Shown: piece by piece, positions 57,730 through 64,000 of the stretch
Layout of the letters: every line of letters begins with the position of its first letter
Numbering within the stretch: the first letter of the stretch is position 1
From: Candidatus Cottocaccamicrobium excrementipullorum
Lineage (GTDB): Bacteria > Bacillota > Clostridia > Lachnospirales > Lachnospiraceae
DNA: 64,000 nucleotides
Assembly (NCBI GenBank): GCA_018713255.1
Contig: DVFL01000009.1
Span: 227,742-291,741 of the forward strand
Direction of reading: 5' to 3'
Position numbers and translations under genes: made by a program
Notes under the pieces: model-generated
The model's input: the letters and a program-made list of their open reading frames with translations, nothing else
What the model was told of the DNA's origin: nothing
Database searches by the model: none

Positions 57730-59271
57730 ATGAGCAGAGAGATGATTATCGTTCTGGATTTCGGCGGACAGTACAATCAGCTGATCGCCCGCCGGGTCCG
57801 CGAGTGCAGTGTCTACTGTGAAGTGCACCCCTACACTATGTCCCTGGATGCCATTAAGGAGATGAATCCCAAGGGCATTATCTTTACCGGCGGACCAAAC
57901 AGCGTATACCTGGAAGAATCCCCTCATATTGACAAGGCTATTTTTGAGCTGGGGATCCCCATTTTAGGCATTTGCTACGGCTCACAGCTGATGGCTTATG
58001 AGTTAGGCGGCCAGGTGGCTACTGCTCCGGTGAGCGAATACGGCAAAACCGAAGTAGAAGTGGACAAGAGTTCTCTTTTATTCAAAGATGTGGAGCCTGT
58101 TACCGTCTGCTGGATGAGCCATACGGATTATATCGCAAAGGCACCTGAAGGATTTAAGACAGTTGCCCACACGCCGGTCTGCCCCATTGCAGCGATGGAG
58201 TGCCCTGAACGGCGGCTTTACGCTACTCAGTTCCATCCTGAGGTAATGCATACTGTGGAAGGCATGAAAATGCTTCACGCTTTCGTTTATGATGTGTGCG
58301 GATGCAGCGGCGACTGGAAGATGGATTCCTTTGTCACCACAACTATCGAGTCTCTGCGGGAAAAGATTGGAAGCGGGAAGGTGCTCTGCGCCCTGTCCGG
58401 CGGCGTGGATTCTTCTGTGGCTGCCGTTCTGTTATCCAAGGCAGTAGGAAAACAGCTGACCTGTGTATTTGTTGATCACGGACTTCTTCGGAAAAATGAA
58501 GGAGACGAGGTGGAAGCCGTATTTGGACCAGAAGGGCCTTACGAGCTTAACTTTATCCGAGTAAACGCTCAGGAGCGGTTTTATGGAAAACTCGCCGGCG
58601 TAACTGAACCGGAAGAGAAGAGAAAGATTATTGGTGAAGAATTCATTCGGGTATTCGAAGAAGAGGCCAAGAAGATTGGCGCTGTGGATTTCCTGGTACA
58701 GGGAACCATTTATCCAGATGTGATTGAGTCCGGTCTGGGCAAATCTGCCGTGATCAAGTCTCACCATAATGTTGGAGGACTTCCAGATTATGTAGATTTT
58801 AAGGAGATCGTAGAGCCTCTGCGCCTCCTTTTCAAGGATGAGGTTCGCAAGGTAGGTCTGGAACTGGGAATTCCTGAATATCTGGTATTCCGTCAGCCAT
58901 TCCCCGGCCCTGGTCTGGGAATCCGGATCATTGGCGAAGTAACTGCGGAGAAAGTGCGGATCGTTCAGGACGCAGATGCCATCTACCGTGAAGAGATCGC
59001 CAAGGCCGGCGTGGACAAGCGGCTGGGCCAGTACTTTGCCGCTCTGACCAATATGCGGTCTGTAGGCGTGATGGGCGACTTCCGCACCTACGATTACGCC
59101 GTGGCCCTGCGTGCAGTGGAAACCTCCGACTTTATGACAGCCGAAGCAGCAGAGATTCCCTGGGAAGTGCTGCAGAAGGTGATGAACCGGATTGTGAACG
59201 AGGTGAAGGGAGTAAATCGGGTAATGTATGATCTGACTTCTAAGCCGCCGGGGACGATTGAGTTCGAATAG
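57730..59271 (+). CDS. guaA: GMP synthase (glutamine-hydrolysing)
   Basis: 513-residue GuaA, converting XMP to GMP with glutamine and ATP. It has an N-terminal class I glutaminase (GICYGSQLM with nucleophile Cys, ATQFHPEV His/Glu) and a C-terminal ATP pyrophosphatase ([12 protein letters not shown]) plus dimerisation domain ending KPPGTIEFE. The start follows AAAAGGAGTTTCCC. A terminator-type hairpin right in front suggests attenuation. The 3' end of guaA is a known integration site for genomic islands and ICEs in several bacteria, and here a mobile element begins within ~60 bp. Confidence 0.97.
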
Positions 59272-59276
59272 TAAAC

Positions 59277-59322
59277 AGAGAGCCGGGAAGCCGCATAAAC
59301 AGCGGACTTTCCGGCTCTTAGT
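59277..59322 (+). terminator. Hairpin after guaA
   Basis: AGAGAGCCGG-GAAG-CCGC pairs with GCGG-CTTT-CCGGCTCT; only TTA follows, so the T-tract may have been lost where the mobile element joins. Confidence 0.65.
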
Positions 59323-59330
59323 GTGTGGCG

Positions 59331-59349
59331 TGATACCTTTTTGATACCT
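59331..59349. repeat. TGATACCT direct repeats at the element's left edge
   Basis: TGATACCT at 59331-59338 and 59342-59349, 11-bp period, about 60 bp after the guaA stop. Placement suits arm-type integrase sites near attL (inference). Confidence 0.5.
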
Positions 59350-59372
59350 ATATACTTGAATGGAGATTATAA

Positions 59373-60923
59373 TTAGCTTCGTAGATTTGCTTCTTCGATA
59401 AATCTCAAATCAAGATATTCGTGAATAGCATTCTCGATATCAGGTATATCTTGGATAAGTGATTTGTTGTTTAATAAGTTTTCTTTATAAAATTCCATGT
59501 ATGTTGTTCTGCGACGAGTTGCTGATAACTTTTCGTTTGGTTTGGGGCGACATTCTTCAGGTATCAAATAGAGTAGTATACTATTTTCTAAATCTAATAA
59601 TAAGTCAGAAGAATATAGAATTAGATGATAGTTTTGAAACCAAAGTGATTCGTCCCTGTGAGTCTTTAAGATGGCAATGTCCTGTTCGGAAAATAAGCTT
59701 TTACTTAAATAATAAGATATTAATACCTGATTGTTGGATTTTAAAACCATATCAGCATAATCTTTTAATATATCTCCAAACCCGAACTCGTTAATTGCAT
59801 AATAATAGTAAAGTTGTTCTTCTTGAAATGGTGTGCTTAAAGCCTGATCAAATCGTATCTTGAAAAAATTTTTAACTTTCTCTTTATCAAAATTATTCAT
59901 ATGACTAAATATATCAACACTGTATAAAAGTGATTCTGGAGAAGTTCTAAAAATATAACATAATTGGTGGTAATCATATTTTTTAACAATGAATTTATTT
60001 AAGTCCAGAGTTCTAAAATATTTTGTTTTGAAAAAGTTATTTATAAAAACTTTTTTTTGCTTTTCGTCATGTAATTGAGATAGACGGTATACAATTTGAT
60101 TTATAAAAACCAGTTTGTTTTGATCATCATTGCGTCTATAATGTATATTACAATGAGCAATTAATTTTTTCCAATACCGTGCAATTACGTTATAAGAATT
60201 GAATTTTTCGTAATCCCATATTTCATATTTGTTTTCGTTTCCTTCTAAATCGAATTGATCCAAAACGGAATAAAATGTCTCTCTTATCTTACTATTGTTT
60301 TCCTTATTACAAAAGAAATAAAAATCATCTGAAAAATATGTAAAATCACAAGCAATGCTTTGTGCTGCAAATTCAGCTTCAAGAGCACTGCTTATTTTTG
60401 TTAAGTGTTGCTCAGCAAAATATAGAGATAAATAATTTCCCATAATCAGACCGTTTGTGGCACCACAATTCATATTTGTAATATAACGATCAGTTAAGCC
60501 ATTCCAGTCCAAATAGTGGGTATACAGTCGCCCATAAAAATCTTTTATATCTAACTTAATTAGATTATCATAGACACATAATTCTTCAAAATCTTTTTCT
60601 AATTGAGTATCATATTCACCAATTGCAAAATCGCCAGTATTTAATCTAGCTGATAATCGTTTATGGGAAATATCAAGTTGTTGTGGATCTTCAAAATGGG
60701 GAAAATTTTTAATATGCTCATAAGCACAAGTAAGAGCGATTATATTAGGTAATTTTAATGTACGAAATCTATCACCGCTCTTTTTTATAGTAAATTTAAT
60801 TGGTTTAGTCCAACAAGTATCATCAATGTCTATAGAACCTGGATCAGTTGGAAAAATTAAATTGTCTATATTGATAAAATGTCGAATAGGATTTTTAAAA
60901 TTATAAATGTTATTATAGTCCAT
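59373..60923 (-). CDS. Abi/UG-class reverse transcriptase, probable phage-defence gene
   Basis: 516-residue protein with a reverse transcriptase palm at about 50-260. Motif A is DIKDFYGRLYTH (125-136), the DIxxFYxxxYTH form characteristic of abortive-infection and unknown-group RTs; motif B GATNGLIMGNYLS (154-166) has TNG in place of the PQG of group II introns; motif C is YFSDD (196-200). The C-terminal half is helical and aromatic-rich, as in AbiK and Abi-P2. Many such RTs (DRT systems, AbiA, AbiK) stop phage by untemplated or ncRNA-templated DNA synthesis. The ATG at 60923 overlaps the XRE gene's TAA (TAATG). It is strongly AT-rich, indicating transfer. The exact RT class is not determined. 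Confidence 0.87.
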   Translation of the reverse strand: MDYNNIYNFKNPIRHFINIDNLIFPTDPGSIDIDDTCWTKPIKFTIKKSGDRFRTLKLPNIIALTCAYEHIKNFPHFEDPQQLDISHKRLSARLNTGDFAIGEYDTQLEKDFEELCVYDNLIKLDIKDFYGRLYTHYLDWNGLTDRYITNMNCGATNGLIMGNYLSLYFAEQHLTKISSALEAEFAAQSIACDFTYFSDDFYFFCNKENNSKIRETFYSVLDQFDLEGNENKYEIWDYEKFNSYNVIARYWKKLIAHCNIHYRRNDDQNKLVFINQIVYRLSQLHDEKQKKVFINNFFKTKYFRTLDLNKFIVKKYDYHQLCYIFRTSPESLLYSVDIFSHMNNFDKEKVKNFFKIRFDQALSTPFQEEQLYYYYAINEFGFGDILKDYADMVLKSNNQVLISYYLSKSLFSEQDIAILKTHRDESLWFQNYHLILYSSDLLLDLENSILLYLIPEECRPKPNEKLSATRRRTTYMEFYKENLLNNKSLIQDIPDIENAIHEYLDLRFIEEANLRS

Positions 60924-61486
60924 TATTTTCTCCAATCATAACTATTATTTTTCTTGTCATTCCCTTTTTCGTCAACATCACTACTGGTAGCAGGCCAGTT
61001 GATCTTCCATTCAAAATATTCGTCCTCTGATATTTCCTTGTTCTTTAACTGTTCTTTTCGCAAGCACCATTCACGCAGAAATTCATTCACAAGACCATAA
61101 TCAATCCACATTCCCACAGGAGCGTGAGCAGGCCAGTCATCACTGTCATTATACCGTACAGTATTATCATCAGAATTGTACTTGCCGGGATTAGGAACAA
61201 GCTGAAATAAATGGAAAGTATTACGGTTATCCTCGTCAAGCCAGAAAAACGTCTGCATAATATCTTCAGCGCAGCCGGGAGTCACAGTGATAAAATTGAT
61301 GTAATTGACATTTAAAATCTTTGCGATTTCCATAAGCGTATCTTTTTTAGGAACACGATAGCCGGACTCATATTGTGCAACACGGACATCGGCATTACGT
61401 TCTTCATATCCCAGTTTCAAGCCTAATTCCCGTTGTGTTAAGCCACGAAACGTGCGGATTCGCTTTATTCGTTCACCTAATATCAT
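60923..61486 (-). CDS. XRE family HTH regulator coupled to the reverse transcriptase
   Basis: 187-residue protein. Residues 1-60 are a Cro/CI-type helix-turn-helix (GERIKRIRTFRGLTQRELGLKLG, then RVAQYESGYRVPKKDTLMEIAKIL). The rest, with SDDWPAHAPVGMWIDYGLVNEFLREW, is an element-typical C-terminal region of unknown role. Its stop codon shares a base with the start of the RT gene (TAATG), so both are made from one mRNA. It may repress its own unit and the divergent xis-int promoter, or directly modulate the RT. RBS AAAGGATACTGAAT before the ATG at 61486. Confidence 0.88.
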   Translation of the reverse strand: MILGERIKRIRTFRGLTQRELGLKLGYEERNADVRVAQYESGYRVPKKDTLMEIAKILNVNYINFITVTPGCAEDIMQTFFWLDEDNRNTFHLFQLVPNPGKYNSDDNTVRYNDSDDWPAHAPVGMWIDYGLVNEFLREWCLRKEQLKNKEISEDEYFEWKINWPATSSDVDEKGNDKKNNSYDWRK

Positions 61487-61595: not shown

Positions 61596-61703
61596 CTTAT
61601 CATAAATGCTAAATTTAATAAAAAAGATAAGCTTAACAAATATGCTATTGACAATAACGTAAATGTCAAGTATAATGCGAATATAAAACTTAACAAAAAA
61701 GCT
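61596..61703 (+). repeat. Three 15-bp iteron-like repeats between XRE and xis
   Basis: CTTATCATAAATGCT (61596-61610), CTTAACAAATATGCT (61632-61646) and CTTAACAAAAAAGCT (61689-61703), same orientation, flanking the xis-int promoter. Candidate binding sites for the XRE protein or Xis. Confidence 0.65.
61648..61676 (+). promoter_or_regulatory. Consensus promoter of xis-int-mob
   Basis: TTGACA, 17-bp spacer, TATAAT. TTGACA is also the left arm of an inverted repeat with TGTCAA (61664-61669), so a repressor bound there would block the promoter. Confidence 0.9.
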
Positions 61704-61726
61704 AAATAAAAAAGGAGGACATCTAT

Positions 61727-61915
61727 TTGAAGAATGATTTATTTGTAACAGCCGGTGAAGTTGCACAGGACTTGGGCGTTTCCAAACCATTTGCCTACAA
61801 ATTGGTGCGGCAGATGAATGAAGAACTGGAAGCAAAAGGATTTATTACAATCGCCGGAAGAGTAAGCAGAAAATACTATGAAGAAAAATTCTATGGTATG
61901 GCGCAGGCAAATTAA
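61727..61915 (+). CDS. xis: Excisionase-like small DNA-binding protein
   Basis: 62-residue protein starting at TTG (61727) behind AAAAGGAGGACATCTAT. The sequence LFVTAGEVAQDLGVSKPFAYKLVRQMNEEL is a MerR/excisionase-type helix-turn-helix, followed by GRVSRKYYEEKFYG, the common end of small Xis-like proteins. Placement directly before the integrase (15 bp gap) supports a role as recombination directionality factor. The symbol is by role, not by close identity. Confidence 0.75.
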   Translation: MKNDLFVTAGEVAQDLGVSKPFAYKLVRQMNEELEAKGFITIAGRVSRKYYEEKFYGMAQAN

Positions 61916-61930: not shown

Positions 61931-63016
61931 ATGGCGGCGTACAAAGATGAAAAGCGTGGAACGTGGTATGTATCGTTTCACTATTATGACTGGACAGGAA
62001 AAAACTGTCGGAAAGTGAAAAGAGGTTTTAAGACCAAACGGGAAGCGACAGAATGGGAACGTCATTTCCGTATGAAAGAAGCTGCTGATCTGGATATGAC
62101 CTTTGGAGAGTTTGTAGAAGCCTACACCAGAGATATGAAGCCGAAACTGAAACACAATACCTGGCTGACAAAGGAACATATTCTGCGGACGAAGTTATTG
62201 CCATATTTTAAGGACAAGAAAATGCGTGACATTCGTGCAACAGATATTATCCAATGGCAAAATGAACAAATTTCTTATCGTGATGATAAAGGAAAACCTT
62301 ATGCTCCTACGTATCTGAAAACTCTGCAATCAGAATTAAGCGCTCTTTTCAATCACGCAGTGCGTTTCTATGAATTGAAAAATAATCCGGTTGTAAAAGC
62401 GGGCCCACTTGGAAAAGGGAAAGCAGAGGAAATGCTTTTCTGGACAAAAGAGGAATATTTAAAATTTATTGAAGCGGTAAAAGACAAGCCGTATTCCTAC
62501 CATGCATTCCAGATATTGTATTGGTGCGGATTGCGTGTGGGAGAACTGTTAGCTCTTACTCCGCAGGATATTGATTTTGATAACAAGGTCATTCGGATTA
62601 CAAAATCTTATCAGCGGTTAGAGGGGAAAGACGTAATTACAGACCCGAAGACTCCTAAAAGTAAACGAAATGTGAGTATGCCGGATTTCCTGTGTGACGA
62701 ACTGAAAGATTATATCAGCAGATTATATGGAATTCTTCCTACGGATCGTATCTTTCATCTGACAAAAAGTTTTCTGCACCATGAAATGACAAGAGGTGCA
62801 GAGAAAGCAGGGGTAAAGCGTATCAGAATTCATGATTTGAGACATTCGCATATTTCCCTGCTGATCAGTATGGGATTTTCGGCTGTATCAATCGGAAATC
62901 GAGTAGGGCATGAAAGCGTTGATATTACCTATCGCTATGCCCATATGTTTCCTACAGAGCAGACGAAAATGGCGAAGTTATTGAATGAAGAATTTAAGGA
63001 GGGCATGGAAGAATGA
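61931..63016 (+). CDS. int: Tyrosine recombinase (integrase)
   Basis: 361-residue phage-type integrase. The N-terminus (about 1-50: YKDEKRGTWYVSFHYYDW...GFKTKREATEWE) is an AP2-like arm-site-binding domain; a SAM-like core-binding domain spans ~55-155; the catalytic domain has Arg in CGLRVGELL, HDLRHSHIS (His and second Arg), GHESVDITYRYAH (third His and Tyr nucleophile). The R-H-R-H-Y set is complete, so it should be active. Its stop overlaps the next start in ATGA. It probably integrates the element at the guaA 3' end. Confidence 0.95.
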   Translation: MAAYKDEKRGTWYVSFHYYDWTGKNCRKVKRGFKTKREATEWERHFRMKEAADLDMTFGEFVEAYTRDMKPKLKHNTWLTKEHILRTKLLPYFKDKKMRDIRATDIIQWQNEQISYRDDKGKPYAPTYLKTLQSELSALFNHAVRFYELKNNPVVKAGPLGKGKAEEMLFWTKEEYLKFIEAVKDKPYSYHAFQILYWCGLRVGELLALTPQDIDFDNKVIRITKSYQRLEGKDVITDPKTPKSKRNVSMPDFLCDELKDYISRLYGILPTDRIFHLTKSFLHHEMTRGAEKAGVKRIRIHDLRHSHISLLISMGFSAVSIGNRVGHESVDITYRYAHMFPTEQTKMAKLLNEEFKEGMEE

Positions 63017-63402
63017 GTGGTACACACAAATATCCAACAATCAGCTTTCGTATTTCTCCCAGAGAACGTGAGGAAATTGAAGCGAAAATTCTTGTCAGTG
63101 GTATGAAGAAAAAAGATTATTTTGTTCGTTCCTGTATTTATAATCGTGTGTGCGTGGTAGGAAAGAAAGAGACTGTATATCAGATTGTAGAGAAATTGAA
63201 GGAAATGGAAAACCATCTGTTAGAGTTGGCAGAGCAGTTAAAGGACAAAAAGCCGGAGATTACTTCCGAAGAAATCCGGGAACTTCATACGGCTTATGAG
63301 GATATGTTAAAAGCAGTTCTCTGGATGTTGGACGGAGCAAAATATCTGTGGGAGGGAACTGATAAAAAATGCCCCGACAGCGGCAACTGTCAGAGCGTGT
63401 GA
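63013..63402 (+). CDS. MobC-like mobilization accessory protein
   Basis: 129-residue protein. Its N-terminal region (YPTISFRISPREREEIEAKILVSGMKKKDYFVRSCI) is a ribbon-helix-helix with the pattern of MobC/relaxosome proteins that assist a relaxase at oriT; the rest is a coiled-coil-prone helical part. It is coupled to the integrase gene by an ATGA overlap. A relaxase gene is expected further downstream but lies outside the window. Confidence 0.7.
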   Translation: MSGTHKYPTISFRISPREREEIEAKILVSGMKKKDYFVRSCIYNRVCVVGKKETVYQIVEKLKEMENHLLELAEQLKDKKPEITSEEIRELHTAYEDMLKAVLWMLDGAKYLWEGTDKKCPDSGNCQSV

Positions 63403-63407
63403 TAACG

Positions 63408-63454
63408 GAAACCTCTGTTATCAGTAATCACAATACGAGTATAGCAGAGGTTTC
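63408..63454 (+). terminator. Hairpin between mobC-like and ATPase genes
   Basis: GAAACCTCTG / CAGAGGTTTC, 10-bp stem with a 27-nt loop; the following TTTCG is a weak T-tract, so termination may be partial. Confidence 0.5.
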
Positions 63455-63491
63455 TTTCGTTGACAATGAGATTTTCAGAAACGGAGGTTAT

Positions 63492-64000
63492 ATGGAAGAA
63501 ACGAGAACAGAATTGCAGATGATTAAAATGTCGGAAATACAGTCAAAGGAAGTAGCATGGCTGTGGTATCCATTTATTCCATATGGAAAGCTGACAATTA
63601 TACAAGGCGATCCGGGAGACGGAAAAACAACGCTTGTACTTAATATAGCGGCAAAACTCTCAAAGGGTGAGGGCTTAGACAGCGACATGAAATTGACAGA
63701 GCCATTGACGGTAATCTACCAGAGTGCGGAGGATGGACTCGCCGATACGGTAAAACCACGCTTGGAAGCAGCAGGCGCAGATTGCGAGAATATTTCTATT
63801 ATTGATGAAAGTATAAAATCGCTTTCCATGATAGACGAACGTCTGGAGGAAGCAATTATAAAGACAAAGGCAAAACTTCTGATTTTAGACCCGATACAAG
63901 CCTATCTTGGAGGCAATATGGATATGAACCGTGCAAACGAAGCAAGGGACATGACAAAGAAACTTGCGGCTCTGGCAGAAAAATATCAATGTGCCATTGT
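63492..64000 (+). CDS. RepA-like AAA family ATPase, 3' end outside window
   Basis: The first 169 residues are visible. Walker A is GDPGDGKTT (about residues 39-47) and Walker B LLILDPIQAY, typical of the RepA/DnaB-like AAA_25 ATPases found in plasmid and element replication modules; the YQSAEDG segment between them fits. It is preceded by ACGGAGGTTAT. It suggests that the excised element can replicate or be processed as a circle. Truncated by the window. Confidence 0.8.
   Translation, partial: MEETRTELQMIKMSEIQSKEVAWLWYPFIPYGKLTIIQGDPGDGKTTLVLNIAAKLSKGEGLDSDMKLTEPLTVIYQSAEDGLADTVKPRLEAAGADCENISIIDESIKSLSMIDERLEEAIIKTKAKLLILDPIQAYLGGNMDMNRANEARDMTKKLAALAEKYQCAI

Follow-up and report, generated by a model that had tools for sequence, protein, structure and literature searches.

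A UG31 reverse transcriptase gene in a probable cargo slot behind the regulator gene of a guaA-targeting mobilizable element

The window analyzed here is a stretch of 64,000 nucleotides from Candidatus Cottocaccamicrobium excrementipullorum (Lachnospiraceae; contig DVFL01000009.1, positions 227,742 to 291,741), and all coordinates given for it are its own. Two adjoining genes on its minus strand are considered, one encoding a 187 aa XRE-type helix-turn-helix (HTH) regulator (60923..61486) and the other a 516 aa reverse transcriptase (RT; 59373..60923). An earlier sequence-only reading had placed both open reading frames (ORFs) at these positions, and both are open. The coupling of the two genes comes from a cargo slot in a mobilizable element that targets guaA, and it is this slot, not a new class of RT, that is the main finding.

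The regulator-RT junction and the RT

The stop codon of the XRE gene (TAA, 60925-60923) and the start codon of the RT gene (ATG, 60923-60921) share an A, giving a TAATG stop-start overlap (60921..60925, minus strand). A Shine-Dalgarno-like GGAGA, identified by eye, lies within the last XRE codons (60929..60933, minus strand), 5 nt before the RT start. Of the proposal that the regulator is "translationally fused" to the RT, the coupling by a one-base overlap stands; there is no in-frame fusion. The region was also correctly described as AT-rich, with a GC content of 0.33 versus about 0.48 around it.

The RT reading frame is intact over its 516 residues and cannot be attributed to chance, since 445 of the 7,998 candidates scored match it at E ≤ 1e-3, 120 of these being listed. 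The PADLOC profile RT_UG31 (PDLC03770, listed under DRT) matches the full length of the protein with 320.8 bits and the runner-up among the RT profiles, Drt6, scores 86.5 bits. The subclass, which had been left open pending such a profile comparison, is thereby decided: as UG31 outscores every other RT profile, the window RT is an unremarkable member of this already known group. The catalytic motif reads FSDD instead of the YxDD given earlier, and D125, F197, S198, D199 and D200 are identical in all 120 aligned homologues, leaving the catalytic aspartates (D125, D199, D200) intact throughout. The non-PQG motif B (TNGLIMGN) was recognized correctly, with T156, N157 and G162 present in 120/120 of these homologues and G158 in 118/120. 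Residue 7 is a tyrosine in 119/120, and several other tyrosines are invariant.

The structure model of the RT (pLDDT = 94.5) consists of an RT-like domain followed by a helical domain. As had been anticipated for the C-terminal half, the second half is modeled as helical, with a pLDDT of 86–99 per ten-residue block from residue 261 on. Since the model fits DRT6, DRT4, AbiK and Abi-P2 across both domains, with the alignment covering model residues 1–495, the predicted fold is of the Class 1 DRT type (AbiK/DRT4/DRT6), in which an RT-like domain and an all-helical repeat domain form one fold. The enzyme is predicted from this model to make protein-primed, untemplated DNA. A retron or group II intron RT was considered and rejected, in agreement with the sequence-only reading, as neither profile nor fold gives its best match to those classes. 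A profile search of PDB sequences returned one match, 26cz, named as an RNA-directed DNA polymerase fused to SUMO. No Rfam match to a linked noncoding RNA was found near the RT and the slot offers no flanking space for one, an intragenic RNA or an undescribed family being outside the reach of this search; the window holds two weak, sub-threshold Rfam matches, both at 63357-63413. One search by name in open-licence papers found no study of UG31 RTs.

Matches to the RT occur in 8/299 genomes of the family (one weak and one a broken copy), 4/392 of the order (one weak) and 5/398 of the phylum (three weak), with the genome of the window included each time. Viral contigs yielded one RT locus (L021) and genome contigs two (L001, L002), and there was no match among annotated plasmids or phages. 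Two scans around genome G863 found a match in G863 alone, each time one of five genomes. The UG31 RT genes of L027 (G149) and L002 are broken, being split over two frames.

The upstream region is readable in nine RT loci (the window, L001, L002, L021, L024, L025, L026, L027 and L028). This count leaves out L023/G127, where the upstream region lies beyond the contig edge, the weak matches G084, G350, G834, G929 and G951, and G032, which is apparently the same record as L001, the two contigs being equally long (23,511). The XRE gene adjoins the RT gene in three of the nine (the window, L001 and L002), all close relatives; in the other six it was not found by tblastn within 7.7–18 kb of sequence. 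In the RT tree, the three share a nine-row clade with P0004–P0009 (support 99/99). The entries P0004, P0006 and P0007 start with MIGEN/RIMDYN, a translation of the 3' end of the XRE gene in a different frame that L001 and L002 show too, and the junction is therefore likely common to the clade. A conserved two-gene system was nonetheless rejected, since XRE stands beside the RT in only 3/9 loci, from one lineage. The XRE does not belong to a UG31 system; it is a backbone gene of the guaA-targeting element.

A cargo slot between the regulator gene and the element end

Twelve elements were compared (the window, L001, L002, G141, G223, G013, G264, G273, G262, G149, G276 and G481), each with an XRE at least 78% identical over most of its length, the exception being L002, whose XRE is cut by the contig start. 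Those dropped were G222 (84% over residues 79–170 only), G250, G024 and further matches that were partial or more distant. In all twelve, the XRE gene is followed by a gene in the same direction whose first possible start lies no more than about 100 nt from the XRE stop, and in four (the window, L001, L002 and G273) that gene overlaps XRE. The same XRE is followed by cargo other than the RT in 9/12 elements, including SIR2, a HEC-01-like ATPase, a methyltransferase with DUF1848, a HEPN-like protein and unknowns, and seven elements, the window included, have a common 79-bp element end beside guaA as the far limit of the slot. The RT gene is therefore itself the exchangeable cargo, in a position that recalls those of rexAB and hex, which follow a phage cI repressor.

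An alignment of ten XRE tails diverges just after SYxW(R/K); the tails of L065 and L090 did not match the alignment anchor. The swap points are apparently the last XRE codons and the 79-bp end. In the window, the slot amounts to the RT gene and 22 further nt. An empty slot is seen in G076 (XRE 48% identical), where the XRE stop and the end sites are only 56 nt apart. The listings of the searches made in open-licence papers showed no description of such a slot.

Seven of the 13 slot proteins other than RTs match PADLOC at the threshold used, 1e-5 or better. These are HEC-01A in G141 (3.7e-40), the methyltransferase C3a159 (3.6e-14) and RTasDUF1848 (1.2e-49) in G223, RTasHEPN in G264 (3.9e-9), PDC-M28C in G273 (1.0e-6), ThsA/SIR2 in G149 (1e-26) and PDC-S31 in the second G223 element (3e-6). 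Such labels are leads, because PADLOC also holds generic domains and the XRE itself matches. The G149 element that carries the SIR2 gene is degraded. One G481 slot protein has a sub-threshold Pfam match to RiboL-PSP-HEPN, and a fourteenth protein, on the opposite strand in G264, has no PADLOC match at that threshold. No confident family could be assigned to genes in the slots of G013, G262, G276 and G481; such genes (L061:4187-6256, L064:7572-9002, L066:654-1613, which is weakly recombinase-like, and L090:5069-6179) are candidate unnamed defense genes.

The element and its operator-like array

The chromosomal target is guaA, encoding GMP synthase (57730..59271, plus strand), and the element starts at its 3' end. 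The element end of 79 bp (59272..59350) comprises a GC-rich inverted repeat and paired GATACC sites; 65–75 of its 79 bases are identical to the window in six sister elements (L001, G141, G013, G273, G262 and G481), and it is absent behind guaA in the related genomes G111 and G127. Across from XRE, the plus strand encodes a 62 aa excisionase-like protein (61727..61915; ICEBs1 Xis model 4.7e-12, 45.5 bits, below the curated cut-off of 100), a 361 aa tyrosine integrase with an arm-binding domain (61931..63016), which the sequence-only reading had also noticed, and a NikA/MobC-like mobilization protein (63013..63402). An ATPase gene (63369..64000, plus strand) that is cut by the contig end resembles, by eye, the AAA_25 protein of the G141 element. 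With an integrase, an excisionase (subject to its sub-cut-off match) and a mobilization protein, this is probably an integrative and mobilizable element (IME). The sister element in G141 has a Mob_Pre relaxase within about 14 kb; the copy in the window is truncated by the contig end.

The excisionase (xis) and integrase (int) genes lie across from XRE in 10/12 elements (degraded in G149, and with the G481 integrase in several frames); the contigs of G276 and L002 begin at XRE. Downstream, guaA is found in 8/12, and in G149 it is about 4 kb away. A second, diverged element lies between the XRE element and guaA in G223, a second element and a guaA-like gene follow in G264, and guaA is not seen in G276 or L002. 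The tandem arrangements in G223 (L091) and G264 (L092), seen together with L060 and L062, place a distal element between the window-like one and guaA, or in G264 the guaA-like gene, and its proteins are about 54–59% (integrase), 45% (excisionase) and 27–28% (XRE) identical. In L091, the distal XRE gene is followed by a DUF2971-like cargo gene; in L092, no ORF of at least 90 aa was seen between XRE and the guaA-like gene. In G141, too, the window-like element has a second, more distant one beside it (L105:6877-17250), which has its own integrase, an XRE near its end and an apparently empty slot. Between xis and XRE, L001 (6938-7411), L059, L060–L064 and L090 contain one or two genes that by eye resemble acetyltransferase genes; the window has none. 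In G032, the element of the 81%-identical RT copy seems to have a Vsr-like endonuclease gene (L098:7807-8977; by eye) beyond its relaxase gene; defense cargo may therefore not be limited to the slot.

The XRE protein is a predicted element repressor. Its model (pLDDT = 84.8) is confident in the HTH, and the top Foldseek matches are C.Csp231I with its operators (E 1.3e-4) and BswR, followed by ImmR and P22 c2 at E about 0.01. Pfam identified HTH families and no peptidase domain, and the best PADLOC profile is 'Control_protein' (6.3e-10). As a query, the XRE matches 153/299 family genomes at E 1e-3, many through the HTH only, and 16/392 order genomes at 1e-40.

Four operator-like sites lie between XRE and xis: TTATCATAAATGCTAA (61597..61612), TTAATAAAAAAGATAA (61615..61630), TTAACAAATATGCTAT (61633..61648) and TTAACAAAAAAGCTAA (61690..61705), all given on the plus strand. 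They surround a consensus promoter, TTGACA-17-TATAAT (61648..61676, plus strand, 12/12 consensus bases), which faces xis-int and is overlapped by a promoter-like site facing XRE-RT, TTGACA-16-TAGCAT (61642..61669, minus strand, 10/12). The motif TTAACAAAWANGCKAA, derived from the sites themselves with two mismatches allowed, occurs five times in the window versus 0.38 expected, a number reached in 0/100 shuffles, and four of the five occurrences are at 61597-61705. Across 11 elements, 45/47 motif matches lie at most 200 bp upstream of xis. Nine operator regions align closely, with TTGACA kept in 7/9, and the array is kept in G076 despite its empty slot. Among 19 XRE loci, the original motif forms an array in three (L065, L072 and L095), is single in three and is absent in 13, one of which, L066, has its upstream region mostly off the contig. 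A TTCGC...GCGAA variant of the repeat precedes XRE in L069, L070, L071 and L094 (XRE 51–54% identical), where no xis was seen by tblastn; XRE is therefore favored over Xis as the likely array binder, although this does not settle the matter. Serine recombinase genes (by eye) are nearby in L070, L071 and L094.

Interpretation and comparison with known systems

The explanation we consider rather probable is that the RT is a UG31 polymerase of the AbiK/DRT4/DRT6 fold that likely acts against phages by protein-primed, untemplated DNA synthesis, its gene being cargo directly behind the predicted repressor gene of the guaA element. The XRE protein would bind the operator-like array and repress xis-int, and its transcript would also carry the RT, which would then be made while the element is quietly integrated. 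Phage infection would trigger or stabilize a toxic DNA product, and the cell would abort. A broader reading, somewhat short of an even chance, is that the slot is a defense port, in which unrelated immune genes are swapped between the last repressor codons and the end sequence and expressed from the repressor transcript during integration. The UG31 RT would be one plug-in, and the unnamed slot ORFs would be new defense genes.

Several observations weigh against these readings. Of 13 regions scanned, the window alone has the minus-strand promoter-like site, and no 79-bp end was found beside the cargo of G223, G264, G149, G276 and L002, where only one slot border is seen; the unshared site and the unseen far border lower the odds of the preferred explanation slightly. 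The promoter scan is barely above chance (16 promoter-like matches in the region versus 13.6 in shuffles), and the nine aligned operator regions are close relatives whose conservation is partly descent. Six of the 13 non-RT slot proteins have no PADLOC match at 1e-5 (the second G141 protein, those of G013, with mad8 at 5.4e-4, G262 and G276, and both from G481); that of G276 weakly resembles a recombinase (sub-threshold Pfam integrase match), and one of ten chromosomal control neighbors, which were hand-chosen and not random, also reached 1e-5. Behind more distant XREs (46–53% identical; L070, L071, L073, L075 and L076), the following gene runs in the opposite direction; the slot therefore belongs to this element group and not to the XRE family at large. 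Residues 8–41 of the RT contain no tyrosine in a loop that seems to correspond to the AbiK Tyr44 loop, leaving Y7 as the nearest N-terminal candidate. The position of the priming tyrosine differs between known Class 1 members in the portions consulted of PMC9508834, PMC11077055 and PMC13174585.

The Foldseek match to C.Csp231I, the 'Control_protein' profile and the placement of the regulator gene before and overlapping an effector gene would also suit a controller resembling the C proteins of restriction-modification systems, timing cargo expression after entry into a new cell and delaying a toxic RT, with control of xis-int secondary. This is unlikely: the C.Csp231I match covers the HTH part only (about 88 columns), ImmR and P22 c2 come next in the list, and the array surrounds the xis-int promoter and persists in G076 behind an empty slot. 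It is quite improbable that the RT serves the element itself, through maintenance or exclusion of competing elements. A mobile element does carry the RT, and second elements of similar layout stand beside the XRE-bearing one in G141, G223 and G264; however, UG31 RTs outside this element have other neighbors, and the fold is that of tested anti-phage enzymes. We give even less credence to a single dedicated defense system in which XRE senses infection or neutralizes the RT like an antitoxin. The stop-start overlap and the keeping of the pair within the clade of 75–81% identical RTs (the window, L001, L002 and, from the out-of-frame XRE residues, P0004, P0006 and P0007) agree with it, but six of the nine RT loci lack XRE within the sequence searched and the same XRE precedes other cargo in nine of the twelve elements.

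Overall, the observation behind the sequence-only reading is confirmed and its interpretation is supported in part. UG31 gains an intact, well-modeled member with many close relatives for testing, and an odd regulator-RT pair yields a simple rule, which is to look between this regulator gene and guaA. Since the slot is sharp where both borders are seen, it is a clean source of candidate defense genes in this bacterial family. It also allows a test of whether mobilizable elements couple immunity to their quiescent state, in the way that phages do through rexAB and hex.

Among known RTs, RT_UG31 agrees in its full-length match and single RT gene and differs in that the window RT is placed behind an element regulator. 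DRT6, which we take to be UG12, and DRT4/UG15 are 12–13% identical to the window RT, and DRT6 has a separate, far lower-scoring profile. AbiK and Abi-P2 are 15–17% identical, and the tyrosine-free loop sets the window RT apart from AbiK. DRT3b (UG8) is similar in the RT motifs (NCBIfam Drt3b 6.1e-10, 38.4 bits with a cut-off of 350; PADLOC Drt3b 43.7 bits), but these scores are far below membership and neither a second RT gene nor a noncoding RNA was seen at the window locus.

As an element, the nearest parallel is with streptococcal IMEs, in which tyrosine integrases insert into guaA and Mob_Pre (MobV) relaxases occur; a regulator-linked cargo slot is not described in the part consulted of that source, and the word 'regulator' is absent from its main text (PMC5357655). 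In E. coli, IMEs at fixed hotspots are known to carry defense genes, according to the part consulted of PMC10121019. The closest likeness in gene order is with temperate phages that carry exclusion or defense genes on the repressor transcript, such as lambda cI-rexAB. In the portions consulted, hex of phage 434 is on the cI transcript, its ORF apparently partly overlapping the repressor gene (PMC3564112), and genes 45-44-43 of CarolAnn include defense genes co-expressed with the repressor (PMC6426596). Here, the gene overlap fits this arrangement and the co-transcription is putative; the carrier differs in being a mobilizable element, and its cargo is unrelated and differs from one element to the next.
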